The notes below the pieces were generated by a model. The model ran no database searches, was not told where the DNA came from, and worked only from the letters and a program-made list of their open reading frames with translations. 17,350 nt of DNA. It comes from Methanobacteriota archaeon (GTDB lineage: Archaea > Thermoplasmatota > Poseidoniia > Poseidoniales > Poseidoniaceae). Of the stretch, positions 1,381 to 13,728 are shown one piece after another (the first letter of the stretch is position 1; each line of letters opens with the position of its first letter). The translations under genes and the position numbers were made by a program. Where the stretch lies: NCBI GenBank assembly GCA_002714305.1, contig PAWY01000010.1:20450-37799 (forward strand). Reading direction: 5' to 3'.

Positions 1381-2544
<1,164 letters not shown>

Positions 2545-2620
2545 GCTACCCAAACATCAACCCTTTTTGAAGGAACGGATGGGCATGAACGTTCAAAAAG
2601 AAGGCCTTTGTGAGCGGTGC

Positions 2621-5435: not shown

Positions 5436-5789
5436 CTACCATGCGCCGTGAACGTAAGGCTTCCCGCGGTCGGGGTCCCGACGATTGGCCAGGTCGTAAA
5501 TGCGTTCAAACCGATAAATACCGCTTGAACACCCTTGAATCCATTCAAAGGCCAAGGCATATTTTCCTACGGTGCGGACCGTCGGTTTCTCCGCAGGAAG
5601 CGCTTCGATTTGACGTCGAAGGCTCCGGCTGCTGTCGTCTTCGTTGCGCATAGGTGAGCACTTGGCACACGGGCATGCAAAACGCAGGTCGTCGTAGGAA
5701 ACGGTGTATTCTGCTTCGTCTTCATAGGTAAGAACCATGTCTTGTTGACGGCGCTCCAATTTCTTCAGCGTTGGCAACACTTCGGTCAT
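5436..5789 (-). CDS. DUF971 (GBBH-like N-terminal domain) protein
   Basis: This 117-residue protein matches DUF971, the small beta-rich domain found at the N-terminus of gamma-butyrobetaine hydroxylase and the C-terminus of plant HCF101. It shows YTVSYDDLRFACPCAKC (28-44) and VGKYALAFEWIQGCSSGIYRFERI (74-97, not a catalytic region). In butyrobetaine hydroxylase this domain binds zinc through three Cys and one His; here Cys39, Cys41 and Cys44 are present but the usual DGH..GIY reads QGCSSGIY, so the fourth ligand would be Cys87. The start has GAGGTGG overlapping the stop codon of the upstream Mrp gene, which implies translational coupling. DUF971 beside or fused to Mrp is a recurring arrangement, so a partner role in Fe-S protein assembly is likely but inferred. 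Confidence 0.85.
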   Translation of the reverse strand: MTEVLPTLKKLERRQQDMVLTYEDEAEYTVSYDDLRFACPCAKCSPMRNEDDSSRSLRRQIEALPAEKPTVRTVGKYALAFEWIQGCSSGIYRFERIYDLANRRDPDRGKPYVHGAW

Positions 5790-5793
5790 GACG

Positions 5794-5800
5794 CCACCTC
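5794..5800 (-). promoter_or_regulatory. Ribosome binding site coupling DUF971 to Mrp
   Basis: GAGGTGG ends four bases before the DUF971 ATG and overlaps the TGA of the Mrp gene (5801-5799). The overlap suggests ribosomes finishing Mrp reinitiate on DUF971, which would tie the amounts of the two proteins together. Confidence 0.6.
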
Positions 5801-6809
5801 AAATGATCTCAAGGCCGCTATCTGCGCCGTCCGACAGTTGGTCTTGAATCGCAGCGACCACCTTGGCAAAGGCTTGGGCGGATGCCCCATCGGGCTCAGA
5901 AACGATGCGGTGGACACCGTCGTCGCCTCCCCGAACGAAGCCGGGGTCAAAGGGGAGTGCTCCGAGGAAAGGAACACCGAATTCTTCGGCCGTGTCCTTG
6001 CCACCGCCCTCTTTGAAGATGTCAAGGGTAACCGAGAAGTTTCCTTGGTCGTCAGCCGTGGCTGAGAGCGTTTTCCCTCCAGGGGCTGCGATGCTGACCT
6101 CGGTTCCAGGAGCGGCGCTGCCGTTGACGGTAAAGCCGCTCATGTTTTCCACCACGCCCAGCACGGGAACCTTGAGCGATTCAGAAAAGGTGATCGATTT
6201 TCGGCTGTCGAGCAACGCCACTTGTTGAGGCGTGGTAACAATGACCATTCCGTCGATGTCGGGAAGGGATTGAGCCACCGTCAGAGGTTCATCTGAAGTC
6301 CCGGGAGGGAAGTCGATGACCAAGTAGTCAAGTTCACCCCATTCCACATCACCAATGAACTGCTGAATGGCTCCGAGTTTGATTGGACCTCGCCAGACCA
6401 CCGGTGTGTCCTCGTCTTCCAGAAGGAAGGCCATGCTGATGACTTTCACACCGAGATGGCCTTGCGCGGGGTGTATCCGCTTGTTTTCCACATGAAGGCG
6501 TCGCCCATCCAGGCCCATCATTTTCGGAACGTTCGGCCCGGTGATGTCAATGTCGAGGATACCAACGGTGTGACCCTGCTGAGCCAAGGAAAGCGCAAGG
6601 CCGGTGGATACCGTGGACTTGCCCACCCCACCCTTTCCGGAGAGCACCATGATTTTGTGCTTGATTTTACGACCGATTTCCTCCATCGACATCTTGCGTT
6701 TCATTTGTGCAAATGCCTGCTCCATCTGCTTCTGTTCTTGAGGAGATGGGCCTTCAAAACCTCGGTCACTGCCACCGGGTGGGTTGATGGATACGGGGGA
6801 ATCCGCCAT
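5799..6809 (-). CDS. Mrp/ApbC-type P-loop ATPase lacking the CxxC motif, with an Ig-like insert
   Basis: Mrp/ApbC/NBP35 proteins are dimeric deviant-Walker ATPases that carry or transfer 4Fe-4S clusters. Residues 51-225 are canonical: VLSGKGGVGKST (55-66), ILDIDITGPNVPKMMG (84-99), VVWRGPIKLGAIQQF, YLVIDFPPGTSDEPLT, VIVTTPQQVALLDSRK and VLGVVENMSGF. The normal continuation is a CPxC motif that bridges the cluster in the dimer. Here about 36 residues (227-262: VNGSAAPGTEVSIAAP, then GGKTLSATADDQGNFSVTLD) replace it, and the family pattern resumes at IFKEGGGKDTAEEFGVPFLG. The insert reads like a bacterial Ig-like beta-sandwich fragment. The whole 336-residue protein contains no cysteine. The DUF59 domain of bacterial Mrp is absent; the N-terminus is a short Gln/Met-rich helix. 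It precedes DUF971 in an operon. Family certain; Fe-S function doubtful. Confidence 0.9.
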   Translation of the reverse strand: MADSPVSINPPGGSDRGFEGPSPQEQKQMEQAFAQMKRKMSMEEIGRKIKHKIMVLSGKGGVGKSTVSTGLALSLAQQGHTVGILDIDITGPNVPKMMGLDGRRLHVENKRIHPAQGHLGVKVISMAFLLEDEDTPVVWRGPIKLGAIQQFIGDVEWGELDYLVIDFPPGTSDEPLTVAQSLPDIDGMVIVTTPQQVALLDSRKSITFSESLKVPVLGVVENMSGFTVNGSAAPGTEVSIAAPGGKTLSATADDQGNFSVTLDIFKEGGGKDTAEEFGVPFLGALPFDPGFVRGGDDGVHRIVSEPDGASAQAFAKVVAAIQDQLSDGADSGLEII

Positions 6810-8201: not shown

Positions 8202-11200
8202 TCATTGCATACCAAACCGGTCGCTGCCGCCTTGGCCTCCACCTCGCCACATCAACGTGAACACCACGATGGCTCCAGCAAACACAAGAACACCAAGACC
8301 TCCAAGAACAGCGGCACTCAGCCCACCTCCAGTGCTGGTCGGCGTGTTGGGTTCAACCAGCGTGATCACCGAGGAACCCGTGTTGAGTTCGCCATAGGAA
8401 TCAAACGCTCGAAGAGCGACCTCATGGGTGCCAATCGGCGTGCCCTCACGGATGGAAAGAAGAACACTGTAGACGCCATCTCCTGCGACTTCATCCCCAC
8501 CATTGGAGCCGTCGTCGAACATGTTCGCCCATTCCGAACCGCCGATGGGCGCGTACACACCGAGTTTGATTTGGACGCGTTCAACACCGTCTGGGTCGTT
8601 GGCTTGCACCGTGTAGGTGAAGGTCTCTTGAGGATTTTTAGCGATGGTTGCAGATTCATAGTTGAGGACTGGACGGTCGTTGAGAATGTGAACTTCCACC
8701 GGCAGCTCTTCGGTTGACACGACGTGGTGTGGGCCAAACTCTGCGCTCCCAACACCGTCGGCAGGCGTGTACACACGCTGCTGGACCGTGGCGCCAAGAG
8801 CGTCGGTGGCGATGACCAGCAGCGATTGATGACCAGGCGTCATACCGACTGGCATCTCAACCATGGCGGCCCATGGACCGCCCGCGCTGTCATTGGTCAA
8901 GTTGATGACTTCCCCTCCGTATTCCCTCAAGTCGATTTGGACGGAAGCAATTCCGTGGCCATCGTAGGCGTTGATGTTCACCACGACCGACTGGCCTCGC
9001 TCAAGGGAGGTTGGCACCATTTCGACGTCCATCAGCCGGGGAGGTTGGTTTGAAACCGCGAGCGTGGCCGAAGACGTGGAGGTTGAACCAAAACTGTCGG
9101 TGGCCGAAACAATGGCTTGGAAGTCGCCCGTTTGCAGACCGGGAATAAGGACGGCTGCGGTGTAAACATCGTCAGCGACCCCCATGTCTCCATTCAGACC
9201 ACGGTCGTTGAGCTCAACGACCCCCAAACCAAGCACCGTCAGGTCAACTTGAACATCGATGATGTTCCATTCTGCATCCTCCACGACCGCTTCAAGATGA
9301 GCGATGCTTCCACCTTCGCCCACAGCAAGGCCGTTTCTCCATTGAATTTGACCAAAGCTGGGCGGTGTGTTTTCATCCTCGCTGACGATTTCGGGGGAGA
9401 GGACGCGTTGCAAGACCTGGGTTTCCTGGAGGACCACTGATTCACCATCATCGCCAAACGGAACCGAAAGGGAGCGCTCAACCGAGGTCAGCAGGCCCTT
9501 CAGTGGACCAGAGGAGACCATGGTTCCAGAGGCAAGACCTCCCTCTCCATCGTAGGTTCCAGTCCATTCAATGACGGTCAAATTGTGTCCATCGCGAACA
9601 TCGATTCGGGTTTCTCCTGCAGTAACCGTGAGGGTGATCCCCTCTTGTTGCCCTAGACGCAGACGGTCATGTTGAACCAATGGAATGGGCATCAGCCCCG
9701 TCTCTCGACCCACCGTGAGGTTTCCTAATCCCTCCTCAGCGATTGGCGGTGTGGCGTTTCGCTGCTGGGGGCTTCGTTCGGGAAATTCTTCACCCTCTGA
9801 AGCGTCCGGTCCAGTCTCCCGCCAGACGAGGCGAACGGTACGGTTGTCCCAATCTGACTGGACGGTTTGGTAATCCCATGTTTGGTTGTGGGTTGCCCCA
9901 ATTCCTGCACCGTCGAAGAAATTCCCGCCGTTGATACCGGTGATGTTGAACCATGACTCTTGGAAAATAACGTTGACAAGGAAAGCATCACCGGTGGCGT
10001 TGGCTTGCATCCCGGTGGTTTCGATGCCTCGCAGAACACCAAACGTTCCTTGCACATCACCGCTCAAGGTTCCGTCAACGTGCAGGTCATCGATGACCGT
10101 CGTGCCGTTTTCCAATTTCGTGTGAAGGTCAAGAATGGTCCCGTTTACCTGAACGGAGGCATTTTCATCTTGGTCCTCAAAACCAAATGTTCCACCGCCG
10201 TAGAGTTCTTCCAAGTGTTGGGTTCGAACGCCTTCCTCCCAACGGTTGACGGAGGTGAAACCGTCAAGGGACACATCCAATCGAGAACCGTCCTCAATCA
10301 ATACAAAATCAGCCATGGCTTCAAACTGGGAATGTTGGAGGATGCGTTCACCGTCCACGTCAATGTATTCGAGGAAAAATACGGCGAGTTCCCCATCGAT
10401 GTTGAGGGAATTGTTGTCCTCACCCTCTTCTGAAATGTTGAGTAAACCGGTGGCCTCAAGCGACAAATGTTCTCCAACCACGCCGTTGATGACCGACCGG
10501 TTGAGCAGAGCCTCCGACACGTTGGCGTTGATCACGGTGACCGTCTCTCCGTCGACGATGGTGGTGCGCAAATCCCCAAAACCACGGGCATCAAAGACTT
10601 GGCTGGTCAAAGCACCAGCGACCATCGTTTCGTTTTTCCATAACTGCGTGAACACCAAATTCAATTCAGTTGTGCCGTCTTCCGTGCTCTCGAGGGTTTG
10701 GAAGGTTCCGTTTCCGAGTTCCCAGGAAGACAAGGTGTCACCGACGCGCTCCTGCCAACCCTGCCCGGTAAAGGCGAGGGAGAAATTTTGCTCTCCCGAT
10801 TCGGTCGTGTAGCTTTGGTCGAGGGCCCAAGAGGTTGAAAGAAGAACTTCGTGGTCATCCATGGGTTGGTTCCACTGACCCACTGTAAACGCCCGCGTGG
10901 TGTCAATGGAAAGGCCCGACACCTCGTTGTGGTCGGTGATGGTAATGGTGAGTTCAACCGTATCGCCCCAAACGAGTGAAGTGTTGAAGTTCAAACGTGC
11001 CGTTCGCACCTCGTTCATGCTGTCCCAAACCGTCGCATACGTGGTTGAAAGTGGAGAACCGTTTCGTTGATGAACCATGTCAACATCAAATCCGTAGGTG
11101 CCATTATCGGAAAACGTCAGGAGGTAGGCATGGGCTACATCGGTTGTTCCATCGCCAATCCAGTGCGTTGTGATTTGGACCGAAGGCGCATCATCCGCTT

Positions 11201-11276
11201 GAACGGAGATGGGGACCAGCGAGGTCACCAGCAGCACCATGAGGCACAGCGGCGCAAGTTTCCGGCGGGTGTTCAT
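8202..11276 (-). CDS. Large secreted, membrane-anchored surface protein with Ig-like domains
   Basis: The 1024-residue protein opens with a signal peptide (basic MNTRRK, hydrophobic core to about residue 24, VQA-DD cleavage). Residues 30-630 are beta-rich, acidic, full of N-x-S/T sequons and match no family I recognise. From about 636 come three Ig-like units (about 636-745, 747-865, 866-970). The first and third carry the DxGxNGD...DxVY pattern (DRGLNGDMGVADDVY; DDGSNGGDEVAGDGVY) followed by a strand ending in A.D.FGS or AFDSYG, as in 'choice-of-anchor X' surface proteins. A single helix at about 986-1010 anchors the C-terminus, leaving a short glycine-rich cytosolic tail. It is probably a cell-surface or S-layer-associated adhesin or stalk. 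The gene follows the DHS-family gene by 51 bases on the same strand. Confidence 0.8.
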   Translation of the reverse strand: MNTRRKLAPLCLMVLLVTSLVPISVQADDAPSVQITTHWIGDGTTDVAHAYLLTFSDNGTYGFDVDMVHQRNGSPLSTTYATVWDSMNEVRTARLNFNTSLVWGDTVELTITITDHNEVSGLSIDTTRAFTVGQWNQPMDDHEVLLSTSWALDQSYTTESGEQNFSLAFTGQGWQERVGDTLSSWELGNGTFQTLESTEDGTTELNLVFTQLWKNETMVAGALTSQVFDARGFGDLRTTIVDGETVTVINANVSEALLNRSVINGVVGEHLSLEATGLLNISEEGEDNNSLNIDGELAVFFLEYIDVDGERILQHSQFEAMADFVLIEDGSRLDVSLDGFTSVNRWEEGVRTQHLEELYGGGTFGFEDQDENASVQVNGTILDLHTKLENGTTVIDDLHVDGTLSGDVQGTFGVLRGIETTGMQANATGDAFLVNVIFQESWFNITGINGGNFFDGAGIGATHNQTWDYQTVQSDWDNRTVRLVWRETGPDASEGEEFPERSPQQRNATPPIAEEGLGNLTVGRETGLMPIPLVQHDRLRLGQQEGITLTVTAGETRIDVRDGHNLTVIEWTGTYDGEGGLASGTMVSSGPLKGLLTSVERSLSVPFGDDGESVVLQETQVLQRVLSPEIVSEDENTPPSFGQIQWRNGLAVGEGGSIAHLEAVVEDAEWNIIDVQVDLTVLGLGVVELNDRGLNGDMGVADDVYTAAVLIPGLQTGDFQAIVSATDSFGSTSTSSATLAVSNQPPRLMDVEMVPTSLERGQSVVVNINAYDGHGIASVQIDLREYGGEVINLTNDSAGGPWAAMVEMPVGMTPGHQSLLVIATDALGATVQQRVYTPADGVGSAEFGPHHVVSTEELPVEVHILNDRPVLNYESATIAKNPQETFTYTVQANDPDGVERVQIKLGVYAPIGGSEWANMFDDGSNGGDEVAGDGVYSVLLSIREGTPIGTHEVALRAFDSYGELNTGSSVITLVEPNTPTSTGGGLSAAVLGGLGVLVFAGAIVVFTLMWRGGGQGGSDRFGMQ

Positions 11277-11327: not shown

Positions 11328-12287
11328 TTAGAGGTCAAGAACATAGCCGAACAACAAGGGGAGAACAATGGTCGCATCGCTTTGAATGTTGAATTTCGGT
11401 GTGTCAATTCCAAGTTTTCCCCAGCTGATTTTTTCGTTGGGCGGAGCGCCGGAATAGCCCCCAAACGAAGCCGTCGCATCCGTTATTTGACAAAACCACG
11501 ACCACAATTCCACCTCGGTCTCACCGAGGTCTTGATGAAGCAGAGGCACAACGCAGATTGGGAAATCGCCGGCAATGCCTCCACCCGATTGGAGGAAGGC
11601 CAGCGGTGTGTTCGCTCCTTGGTAGAACGACATCAAATCGGTCATGTAGTGGGTCCCACTCAAAACGATGTCTGGGGAAAGTTTGCCCTGTGAACATCGG
11701 GCTGCAAAGATGTTTCCGAGGGTTGAATCCTCCCAACCCGGAACGTAGAGCGGGAGGTCAACTTCAGCGGCAGCCAGCACCCAGGAGTTTGATGGATCTC
11801 CTTGGTACTCGTCCTTGAGCGCTCCCGAAGTGAGCAGACGATACAGGTACTGGTGGGGTAACAACGATTCTCCTTCGGCTTGAGCGACACTCCAAACCTT
11901 CATCAAACGGTGCTCCAGTTTACGGATGGCTTCTTCTTCGGGAATGCAGACGTCCGTAACCCGATTGAGATGACGCTCGAACAATTGCAAATCATCTTCG
12001 GGCGAGAGGTCTTCATGGGAGGGCACCTTGACGTAGGCGTCGTGCGCAAGGAGGTTGAACACGTCCTCCTCGAGGTTCGCTCCCGTGCAGGAAATGGCCG
12101 CCACGTGGCCAGTTCGTATCATTTGTGCCAAACTTCGTCCAATTTCAGCCGTGCTCATGGCCCCTGCCAAGGTGAGAAAGAGTTGCCCTCCCTCGCTTAG
12201 AAAACCGGTGAGGGAACGTGCCGCTCCGCTTACCGTTCCAGCGTTGAAGTGGCGATAATGCTCATCCACAAATTCTCGCACGGTCAT
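11328..12287 (-). CDS. Deoxyhypusine synthase family protein
   Basis: DHS transfers the butylamine part of spermidine to a lysine of aIF5A, the first step to hypusine; some homologues instead make homospermidine. Blocks seen (numbered from ATG 12293) are ISCTGANLEEDVFN (67-80), NRVTDVCIPEEEA (110-122), DLPLYVPGWEDSTLGNIF (179-196), FLQSGGGIAGDFPICVVP (233-250), WFCQITDATASFGGYSGA and PPNEKISWGKLG (284-295) with the catalytic Lys293, then SDATIVLPLLFGY. The NRVTD.CIPEEEA and PNEKISWGK wording is closer to the bacterial DHS-like branch than to typical archaeal or eukaryotic DHS. GGAGG sits one base before ATG 12293 but seven before ATG 12287, so I take 12287. It is last in the polyamine operon, two bases after AdoMet decarboxylase. 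Confidence 0.88.
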   Translation of the reverse strand: MTVREFVDEHYRHFNAGTVSGAARSLTGFLSEGGQLFLTLAGAMSTAEIGRSLAQMIRTGHVAAISCTGANLEEDVFNLLAHDAYVKVPSHEDLSPEDDLQLFERHLNRVTDVCIPEEEAIRKLEHRLMKVWSVAQAEGESLLPHQYLYRLLTSGALKDEYQGDPSNSWVLAAAEVDLPLYVPGWEDSTLGNIFAARCSQGKLSPDIVLSGTHYMTDLMSFYQGANTPLAFLQSGGGIAGDFPICVVPLLHQDLGETEVELWSWFCQITDATASFGGYSGAPPNEKISWGKLGIDTPKFNIQSDATIVLPLLFGYVLDL

Positions 12288-12289
12288 GT

Positions 12290-12676
12290 TCATGCCTCCG
12301 TAATGAAACGATCAATTCGCTCTCGGCGAAGGCATACGAGCTTAGGCATGCGTTCCAAGAGACGTTCATGAAGAACATCAGCGATGTGGTCAGGGTTGGT
12401 CTCTCCGCATGTGAAACAATCAATGGCCAGCAAGCCTCGGTCAGCGTAGCAGTGAGCGGTGATGTGGCTTTCATCGATGAGCACCACAGCTGCAAATCCA
12501 GGTGGGGAGGTTGTGCCGTCGAAAGGGGCGAGATGTGCATGCACTTCGGTTGCAGAACTCTCAGCAACGGCTTCCCTCATGAGGCCAAAGAGCCACTGGT
12601 ATTCCGCCTCGTCAGCAAATTCTGCGTGAACGTAATCCAAGAACACGTGAGCTCCTTGACTTGGATTGGCAACCAT
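12290..12676 (-). CDS. speH: S-adenosylmethionine decarboxylase proenzyme (prokaryotic class 1B)
   Basis: The enzyme makes decarboxylated AdoMet, the aminopropyl donor for spermidine. It cleaves itself before a serine to form a pyruvoyl cofactor. Numbered from ATG 12676 (128 residues), VVLIDESHITAHCYADR and LLAIDCFTCG hold Ser70 (pyruvoyl precursor), His75 and Cys90, the same 5- and 20-residue spacings as the Thermotoga enzyme's Ser63, His68 and Cys83. A GTG at 12700 would add eight residues (MGQSAGES), but AGGTGA lies four bases before ATG 12676, and family homology starts near GAHVFLDY. It sits between the ureohydrolase and the DHS-family gene. No aminopropyltransferase is in the window. 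Confidence 0.93.
   Translation of the reverse strand: MVANPSQGAHVFLDYVHAEFADEAEYQWLFGLMREAVAESSATEVHAHLAPFDGTTSPPGFAAVVLIDESHITAHCYADRGLLAIDCFTCGETNPDHIADVLHERLLERMPKLVCLRRERIDRFITEA
12295..12299 (-). promoter_or_regulatory. Ribosome binding site for the DHS-family gene
   Basis: GGAGG lies inside the last codons of speH. The spacing is one base to ATG 12293, too close, and seven bases to ATG 12287, which is near optimal. It points to coupled translation of speH and the DHS-family gene. Confidence 0.5.
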
Positions 12677-12680
12677 GGAC

Positions 12681-12686
12681 TCACCT
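12681..12686 (-). promoter_or_regulatory. Ribosome binding site deciding the speH start
   Basis: AGGTGA, complementary to the archaeal 16S tail, stands four bases before ATG 12676. GTG 12700 lacks any such match, so the shorter protein is preferred. Confidence 0.55.
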
Positions 12687-12711
12687 GCGCTTTGCCCCAC
12701 CGTTCGCTATT

Positions 12712-13728
12712 TCAAAATGCCGAATTGCCTGCGTTCCCAAGTTCAGAAAAATACGAGCCGGCAAATTCGAGATGACCGGAGGGAGCCGTTGGCATCCATC
12801 GACCATGTTCTCGTGCTCGCAGGTGAGAAGCCACGATTTTGGTAGCCAAACAAGCAGCGGTAAACTGTGTAAGGGGTGTGCCGTCTTGAGCCACGATTTC
12901 ATTCACATCGGCGCTAATGACCGCCACCTGTGGATTGTCGAACAGGGTCTCGATGGTTTCAACCGCCTGCCAATAGCTCAATCCCCCCGGCACAGGTGTG
13001 CCCGTGGCGGGCACCAATGCGCCGTCCAATCCATCGATGTCAAGCGTGAAATGAACAGGACCGGAAAGCGACTTGAGTTCGTGAAGCCACTGATTCCATG
13101 CTTCTCCGCCGGTGTGCGGGTGTTGCGTGTCCTTAGCGAAGTAGGTCGTGATTCGGTCGTCGGCGTTGATGCGTTCGAATTCCTCTTGACTGTAGGCACG
13201 GACACCCGCCTGCAACAGGCGACCTACGCCGACGTCAAGGCTTCGCGAGGCGGCGCAGGCGTGAGAAAACACTTCACCGTCCAACGAACTTCGTAGGTCA
13301 GCGTGGGCATCGATCTGAACCACGGTTAAGTTGGAGAGGTCGCCCTTCACGGCGGGATGATGCCGTGCAGCGTGCATGATGGGAGGGAGAATTCCATGCT
13401 CACCACCCAGGAACAACGGAAAGAGGTCACCGCCGAAGAACTTCAAGGCGTGGCTGGCGAGCTCGTCAAGCTGCCCACGTAAGGTAGAAGCGGCCCCTTC
13501 CCAAACCGGTTCGGTGGCAATGGTTCTTCCCGCCGGCAATTCGGTGCCGAGGTGTTCGTCGTAAAGTTCGACTTGAGCACTCGCATCAAGGCATGCTTGA
13601 GGTCCATCGCAGGCCCCCATCCCGTAGGAAGTTGTGAGTTCGTACGCCAATGGAACCACCGCTATATCAGCGGGGCCATCGCTTTGTGGAAGACCCAGAA
13701 ACGCGCCCTCTTGAAACGCCTCCTCCAT
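12712..13728 (-). CDS. Ureohydrolase (agmatinase / aminopropylagmatinase-like)
   Basis: Members hydrolyse a guanidino group to an amine and urea with two manganese ions. All six expected metal ligands are visible: His111 in LFLGGEHG, Asp140, His142 and Asp144 in VVQIDAHADLR, and Asp230 and Asp232 in HFTLDIDGLDGALVPATGTP. GTPVPGGLSYWQ and VISADVNEI complete the pattern. The common DP after the second DxD group reads LDG. Length 338 is within, though at the long end of, the family range. It is the first gene of an operon with AdoMet decarboxylase (35 bases downstream). In archaea such as Thermococcus, spermidine is made by aminopropylation of agmatine followed by a ureohydrolase, so aminopropylagmatine is a likely substrate; agmatine itself remains possible. 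No Shine-Dalgarno match is seen before ATG 13728. Confidence 0.88.
   Translation of the reverse strand: MEEAFQEGAFLGLPQSDGPADIAVVPLAYELTTSYGMGACDGPQACLDASAQVELYDEHLGTELPAGRTIATEPVWEGAASTLRGQLDELASHALKFFGGDLFPLFLGGEHGILPPIMHAARHHPAVKGDLSNLTVVQIDAHADLRSSLDGEVFSHACAASRSLDVGVGRLLQAGVRAYSQEEFERINADDRITTYFAKDTQHPHTGGEAWNQWLHELKSLSGPVHFTLDIDGLDGALVPATGTPVPGGLSYWQAVETIETLFDNPQVAVISADVNEIVAQDGTPLTQFTAACLATKIVASHLRAREHGRWMPTAPSGHLEFAGSYFSELGNAGNSAF

Follow-up and report, generated by a model that had tools for sequence, protein, structure and literature searches.

The Mrp-type ATPase encoded in the window (the whole stretch of 17,350 nucleotides that was analysed, from a marine archaeon of the order Poseidoniales) is an unusual form of a widespread ATPase, real and of long standing: where its CPxC-bearing relatives have a nine-residue loop, it carries 36 residues resembling about half of a bacterial Ig domain. 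The adjoining gene encodes a DUF971 protein. It had been missed in a sequence-only reading of this DNA, and is a concrete candidate for the partner merely supposed there. The features concerned are the following.

5799..6809, minus strand: Mrp/NBP35-type P-loop ATPase, 336 aa, no Cys (PF10609, 4e-90)
6615..6638, minus strand: Walker A GKGGVGKS, residues 58-65 of Mrp, invariant in the 14 sequences of alignment A1
6024..6131, minus strand: 36-residue half-Ig segment, residues 227-262, replacing the nine-residue CPxC loop (from alignments, Big_6/Bap similarity and four predicted strands)
5436..5789, minus strand: DUF971/GBBH-like_N protein, 117 aa, 9 bp past the Mrp stop, candidate partner (PF06155, 8.7e-15)
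5658..5675, minus strand: CPCAKC, i.e. Cys39, Cys41 and Cys44 of DUF971, invariant in 33 of 33 aligned
5529..5531, minus strand: Cys87 of DUF971, present in 33 of 33 aligned and His in the other DUF971s compared

Both the PF10609 domain and the deviant Walker A motif GKGGxGK[ST] are present in the window Mrp. The best stretch of the PF10609 match stops at residue 230, and in the genome search the match was split in two, flanking the 36-residue segment. The closest solved chains were Cfd1 6g2g, the archaeal 2ph1 and 3kb1, and 8zkc, and no match to DUF59 (PF01883) was found on the protein. As the sequence-only reading had it, the frame is open, CPxC is missing and none of the 336 residues is a cysteine; its placing of residues 227-262 of the ORF at 6131-6024 was exact. 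In the Mrp/NBP35 Fe-S carriers a CXXC pair bridges a [4Fe-4S] cluster between subunits (excerpt of PMC6345978). Since CXXC is absent, we treat the window Mrp as kin of this family and do not file it as a cluster-bridging member.

CPxC-bearing Mrps of the phylum read ENMSGF, nine residues with CPxC, then DIFKxGGG, and the window Mrp reads ENMSGF, 36 residues, then DIFKxGGG. The 36-residue insert described earlier thus had the right length and flanks; with both flanks intact and 9 residues giving way to 36 (net +27), it is a replacement, not a plain insertion. To follow it we used the best 80 of 348 confirmed relatives from public genomes, obtained by a scan with A1 and bearing record titles that name Poseidonia, Poseidoniaceae or Poseidoniales, or else just Euryarchaeota/euryarchaeote. 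All loci but L073 could be parsed. In the 79 readable loci of these best 80 the segment had identical length, and CxxC occurred nowhere in Mrp. Conservation, which the earlier reading had proposed to check, therefore held for the segment and for the absence of CxxC, but not strictly for freedom from cysteine: among the same 79 relatives, 62 had none, 13 had one, one had two and three had three. Among 39 close genomes, 37 gave an Mrp match (partial in G009); G028 gave a weak P-loop match alone and G030 none. The second family of the order (f2) also has the segment, lengthened in L033, L224 and L226. We take families f1, f2 and f3 to be MGIIa, MGIIb and MGIII, respectively. By these comparisons the segment is an old, order-wide trait, best explained by one exchange event before the order split.

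Compared with 73 relatives, pN/pS was 0.057 and 0.097 for the core and 0.363 for the segment, with pS near saturation; these values indicate selection on core and segment alike, looser on the segment. The source genome is a draft of 1.63 Mb in 45 contigs, 73% complete with 2.18% contamination, which leaves room for misassembly, contamination or gene decay. Given the segment's presence in all 79 readable loci, from separate records, of the best 80 of 348, its recurrence in a second family and the purifying selection, we discarded this explanation, whose probability we consider negligible; decay had rightly been judged unlikely before. Origin as a recent copy of another genomic stretch was likewise unsupported, the next-best match (E 0.8) lying within a 3190-aa frame. 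A scan of viral contigs gave no match. Elsewhere in the window, positions 8202-11276 encode a 1024-aa, repeat-rich and probably exported protein with a weak Pfam match to DUF4625, under cut-off, and positions 11328-13728 hold consecutive genes on one strand for deoxyhypusine synthase, AdoMet decarboxylase and an arginase-family protein, a polyamine/hypusine cluster. Among the literature matches listed, in which few subscription journals were covered, no title dealt with the Poseidoniales Mrp, an Ig-like segment in Mrp/NBP35 or archaeal DUF971.

The Ig-like beta sandwich of the sequence-only reading stood up as regards similarity to Big_6 and Bap and the four predicted strands, and was reduced to roughly half a domain. 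Taken in isolation the segment scored 29.4 bits against Big_6 (PF17936; Pfam cut-off 27.6), and within the whole Mrp 24.1 bits, under that cut-off; the match spans 12-56 of the 83 profile positions, or roughly half the domain. Big_6 was found at E <= 0.1 in 28 of 31 segments of the order, and a PDB search with a profile of the 31 returned the Bap chains 7dm0 (4.3e-13) and 6m3a (8.2e-7). A model built from ten f2-type segments scored 21 f1 segments at 57.6-75.1 bits, whereas none of 1050 shuffles, in which four residues at either segment end were kept, exceeded 17.3. In the AlphaFold2 model the segment has four strands, at residues 225-231, 237-241, 247-251 and 257-263; the mean pLDDT per block was 91, 68 and 87 for residues 231-260. 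Hydrophobic residues alternate along it as read from the sequence (V228; V238, I240; L248, A250; F258, V260, L262), which suggests a single hydrophobic face that would need a partner. The Mrp model as a whole (mean pLDDT 46, pTM 0.41) is poor outside the segment, so that the placing of the half-Ig at the dimer axis rests on homology; a Foldseek search with this poor model had no Ig structure among the 50 matches listed.

The earlier reading had asked for a second, canonical Mrp. In the window's own genome PF10609 matched the window Mrp and two further proteins, ArsA-like and ParA-like by eye. The pattern ENM-x4-CPxC, which is blind to a differently spaced loop, had matches in 8 of 194 class genomes, the incompleteness of genomes limiting this search as well as the one with PF10609: five are Mrps of genus g22 in family f3 and served as positive control, and three lie in the order. 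The latter were rejected as Mrps, two reading as other proteins and one having a stop inside the match, so that within the order this pattern turned up no CPxC-bearing Mrp among 173 genomes. With CPxC gone, the frame intact, the segment conserved and no second CPxC Mrp found by these searches, the earlier conclusion that this ATPase is unable to bind a cluster in the established manner is borne out. The near-invariant nucleotide site indicates that an ATPase task is kept, though not which task. The only Mrp detected in the order has retained its ATPase but not the site for the cluster; nature has separated the two, and this points to DUF971 as the component to examine.

In a tree of 80 Mrps the order formed a single clade (100/99) among CPxC-bearing Mrps. 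The segment, present in 22 rows, did not enter this tree because columns filled in less than 70% of rows were excluded. Mrps of f3, the sister family, formed a separate clade, where long branches come together according to a warning of the program. The f3 chain is longer, with Mrp and DUF971 fused (in genus g23 the arrangement is DUF59-Mrp-DUF971-like). Genus g22 keeps CPEC, and genus g23 (L039, L041-L043, L045) has no CPxC, with a short loop GFTPPGSEE. In L201 (G276, family f33) and L205 (G226, family f22) the CPxC loop is simply deleted; the L201 frame has 271 aa and no Cys. If CPxC is the ancestral state, the phylum has seen three losses of it or more. Loss of CPxC by itself thus has precedents, to judge by these alignments, in f3 g23, f22 and f33, and the oddity first attached to it was overstated; what sets the order apart is the substitute, since a fold in place of CPxC was seen in Poseidoniales only, among the sequences read. 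Bacteroidetes Mrps, too, may often have no CPxC.

The DUF971 protein scored 55.7 bits against PF06155 (cut-off 22.8). In 78 of the best 80 of 348 loci the DUF971 gene adjoins Mrp on the same strand; in L108 the contig ends 68 bases past Mrp, and in L102, a locus of family f1, no DUF971 was in view. In f2 it was next to Mrp in none of the 14 genomes compared, lying on another contig in 13 and about 119 kb off in one. In the phylum sample DUF971 was found in 76 of 81 class genomes and in 0 of 163 outside the class, and in f22 and f33, where CPxC is lost, it was not found, which counts against a split Mrp-DUF971 pair. The fourth cysteine was present in all 77 readable loci of the best 80 of 348 and in all 16 f2 loci fetched. 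Position 87 is His in the three PDB DUF971 chains found (2l6n among them, which has no CxCxxC), in three bacterial Mrp-DUF971 fusions with CPxC intact, and in f3 g22; in f3 g23 the DUF971 His is lost along with CPxC. Of the metal site of CxCxxC plus His, as present in the fusions, the window DUF971 has the first part, as CPCAKC, and Cys87 in place of His. In the few lineages seen, His is kept where CPxC is kept and replaced or lost where CPxC is lost; as just two independent CPxC losses are involved, this gives a lead and falls short of a test.

The DUF971 model (mean pLDDT 77) matched 2l6n, 3luu and human BBOX1 in fold. The N-terminal domain of BBOX1 presumably binds Zn through three Cys and one His. 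Four cysteines are a common Zn site as well, which counts against reading the DUF971 site as a cluster site. CxCxxC of DUF971 is lost in plants, as stated in an excerpt of PMC7980591, and this loss, together with 2l6n, indicates that DUF971 is able to work without it. The same excerpt has HCF101 sharing the family CxxC, which with the plant loss argues against a general rule. On the other hand, plant HCF101 reportedly depends on C128, C347 and C419, which are cysteines other than a CPxC pair (excerpt of PMC5890173), a further reason why the missing CPxC had been made too much of. DUF971 is the C-terminal domain of HCF101, and its function is described as not defined in excerpts of PMC11838916 and PMC7980591. 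In the 33 aligned, the C-terminus of the f1 DUF971 proteins is HGAW or close to it (window 5436-5450); compared with the targeting tail [LIM]-[DES]-[WF] (excerpt of PMC11838916), the aromatic last residue is alike but the motif is not matched.

The genome holds a SUF operon with an ABC-type SufC, two SufBD proteins, a class-V aminotransferase, SufE and DUF59, the last being a separate gene of SufT type. Besides these there is a NifU-like gene, along with two matches to A-type carriers (PF01521); the latter (G000:C26:59049-59351 and G000:C20:1906-2208) have almost equal scores on two contigs, and are either paralogues or a duplicated draft stretch. With NifU-like and A-type carriers present, an Mrp carrier could be unnecessary, which speaks against a split pair. 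One more gene of the window belongs here.

1381-2553, minus strand (that of DUF971, about 3 kb off): NadA, quinolinate synthase (PF02445, 1.3e-93)

NadA is an Fe-S enzyme and a possible client.

We tentatively favour, at somewhat less than even confidence, the reading that Mrp and DUF971 work as an HCF101-like delivery pair, split over two genes, whose metal site is no longer on the ATPase. From the observed homology and conservation we infer a complex, its metal and its function as follows. The Mrp dimer would open and close with ATP; its two half-Ig units, at the site of the bridging cluster, would pack together or on DUF971 and so replace the bridge. DUF971 would use Cys39/41/44/87 to bind either a [4Fe-4S] cluster or Zn. 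The SUF system would load it, and Mrp would govern its unloading to apo-proteins, driving DUF971 in a way modelled on HypB driving HypA. A more specific version, in which the half-Ig units, one per subunit, complete one beta-sandwich across the two-fold axis and the [4Fe-4S] cluster has moved in trans to DUF971, the His-to-Cys change making a four-Cys cluster site out of one with three Cys and a His, we consider quite doubtful. For the split pair we count the conservation of the segment and of the CxxC loss, the purifying selection, the single clade of the order, the adjacency and co-occurrence of DUF971 and its invariant cysteines, the fusions in f3 and bacteria, the His-Cys pattern, the SUF, NifU-like and A-type genes, and the precedents of HypB-HypA and HCF101. 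Against it stand the separate genes of f2, L102 with no DUF971 in view, and 2l6n and the plants, which do without CxCxxC.

It is somewhat unlikely, in our view, that Mrp has left Fe-S work altogether, the half-Ig docking another client or complex and DUF971 being a structural Zn adaptor through its four cysteines. That CPxC is gone, that the segment evolves faster than the core by the pN/pS values above, that Ig-like folds commonly bind proteins and that the DUF971 model resembles BBOX1, with its presumed Zn site, would all fit. So would HypB of Thermococcus kodakarensis, an Mrp relative serving another metal (excerpt of PMC7055735). However, sister archaea and bacteria have DUF971 either fused to Mrp or encoded next to it, in the company of NifU-family genes, and the near-invariant nucleotide site reflects a kept ATPase task, of whichever kind. 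We regard as rather unlikely that Mrp is an ATP-driven chaperone acting on SUF, NifU or A-type carriers, in need of neither a cluster of its own nor a metal on DUF971, and that the half-Ig just fills the space vacated by CPxC. The genome has the full SUF set with the NifU-like and A-type genes, and CPxC was lost otherwise in the phylum, the loop being plainly deleted in L201 and L205; yet such a chaperone leaves unaccounted for the four conserved cysteines and the His-to-Cys change of DUF971, as well as a structured segment kept across the order.

Compared with known systems, the segment is similar in sequence to the Big_6/Bap-type bacterial Ig repeats; unlike these, which sit in surface proteins, it is about half a repeat, single, and within an ATPase. 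With Mrp/NBP35/ApbC (NUBPL; PF10609) the window Mrp shares the whole P-loop domain, Walker A and the flanks of the cluster loop, but it has the 36-residue half-Ig instead of CPxC. The Mrp/MinD-type HypB of T. kodakarensis, which lacks its own nickel site and acts with the small metal-binding HypA (excerpt of PMC7055735), is related to the window Mrp by sequence (3vx3) and fold (5auq). The HypB-HypA couple differs from the window pair in that HypA is unrelated to DUF971 as far as compared, in that the metal is nickel, not Fe-S, and in having no half-Ig.

There is a likeness also to HCF101 and the bacterial or archaeal Mrp-DUF971 fusions, in which Mrp and DUF971 are one functional set, as they would be in the window pair. 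The fusions L035-L038, L044 and L266-L268 keep CPxC, with the exception of f3 genus g23. Among the five plasmid records of the bacterial DUF971 sample, three were read, and in these (L266-L268) the fusion adjoins NifU-family genes; at the Polaromonas fusion locus SufU, BolA, Grx4 and lipA are nearby too. HCF101 itself is DUF59-Mrp-DUF971 in one chain (excerpt of PMC7980591), an architecture that the window pair does not have: here two genes encode an Mrp without DUF59 that carries the half-Ig, and a DUF971 with a fourth cysteine.
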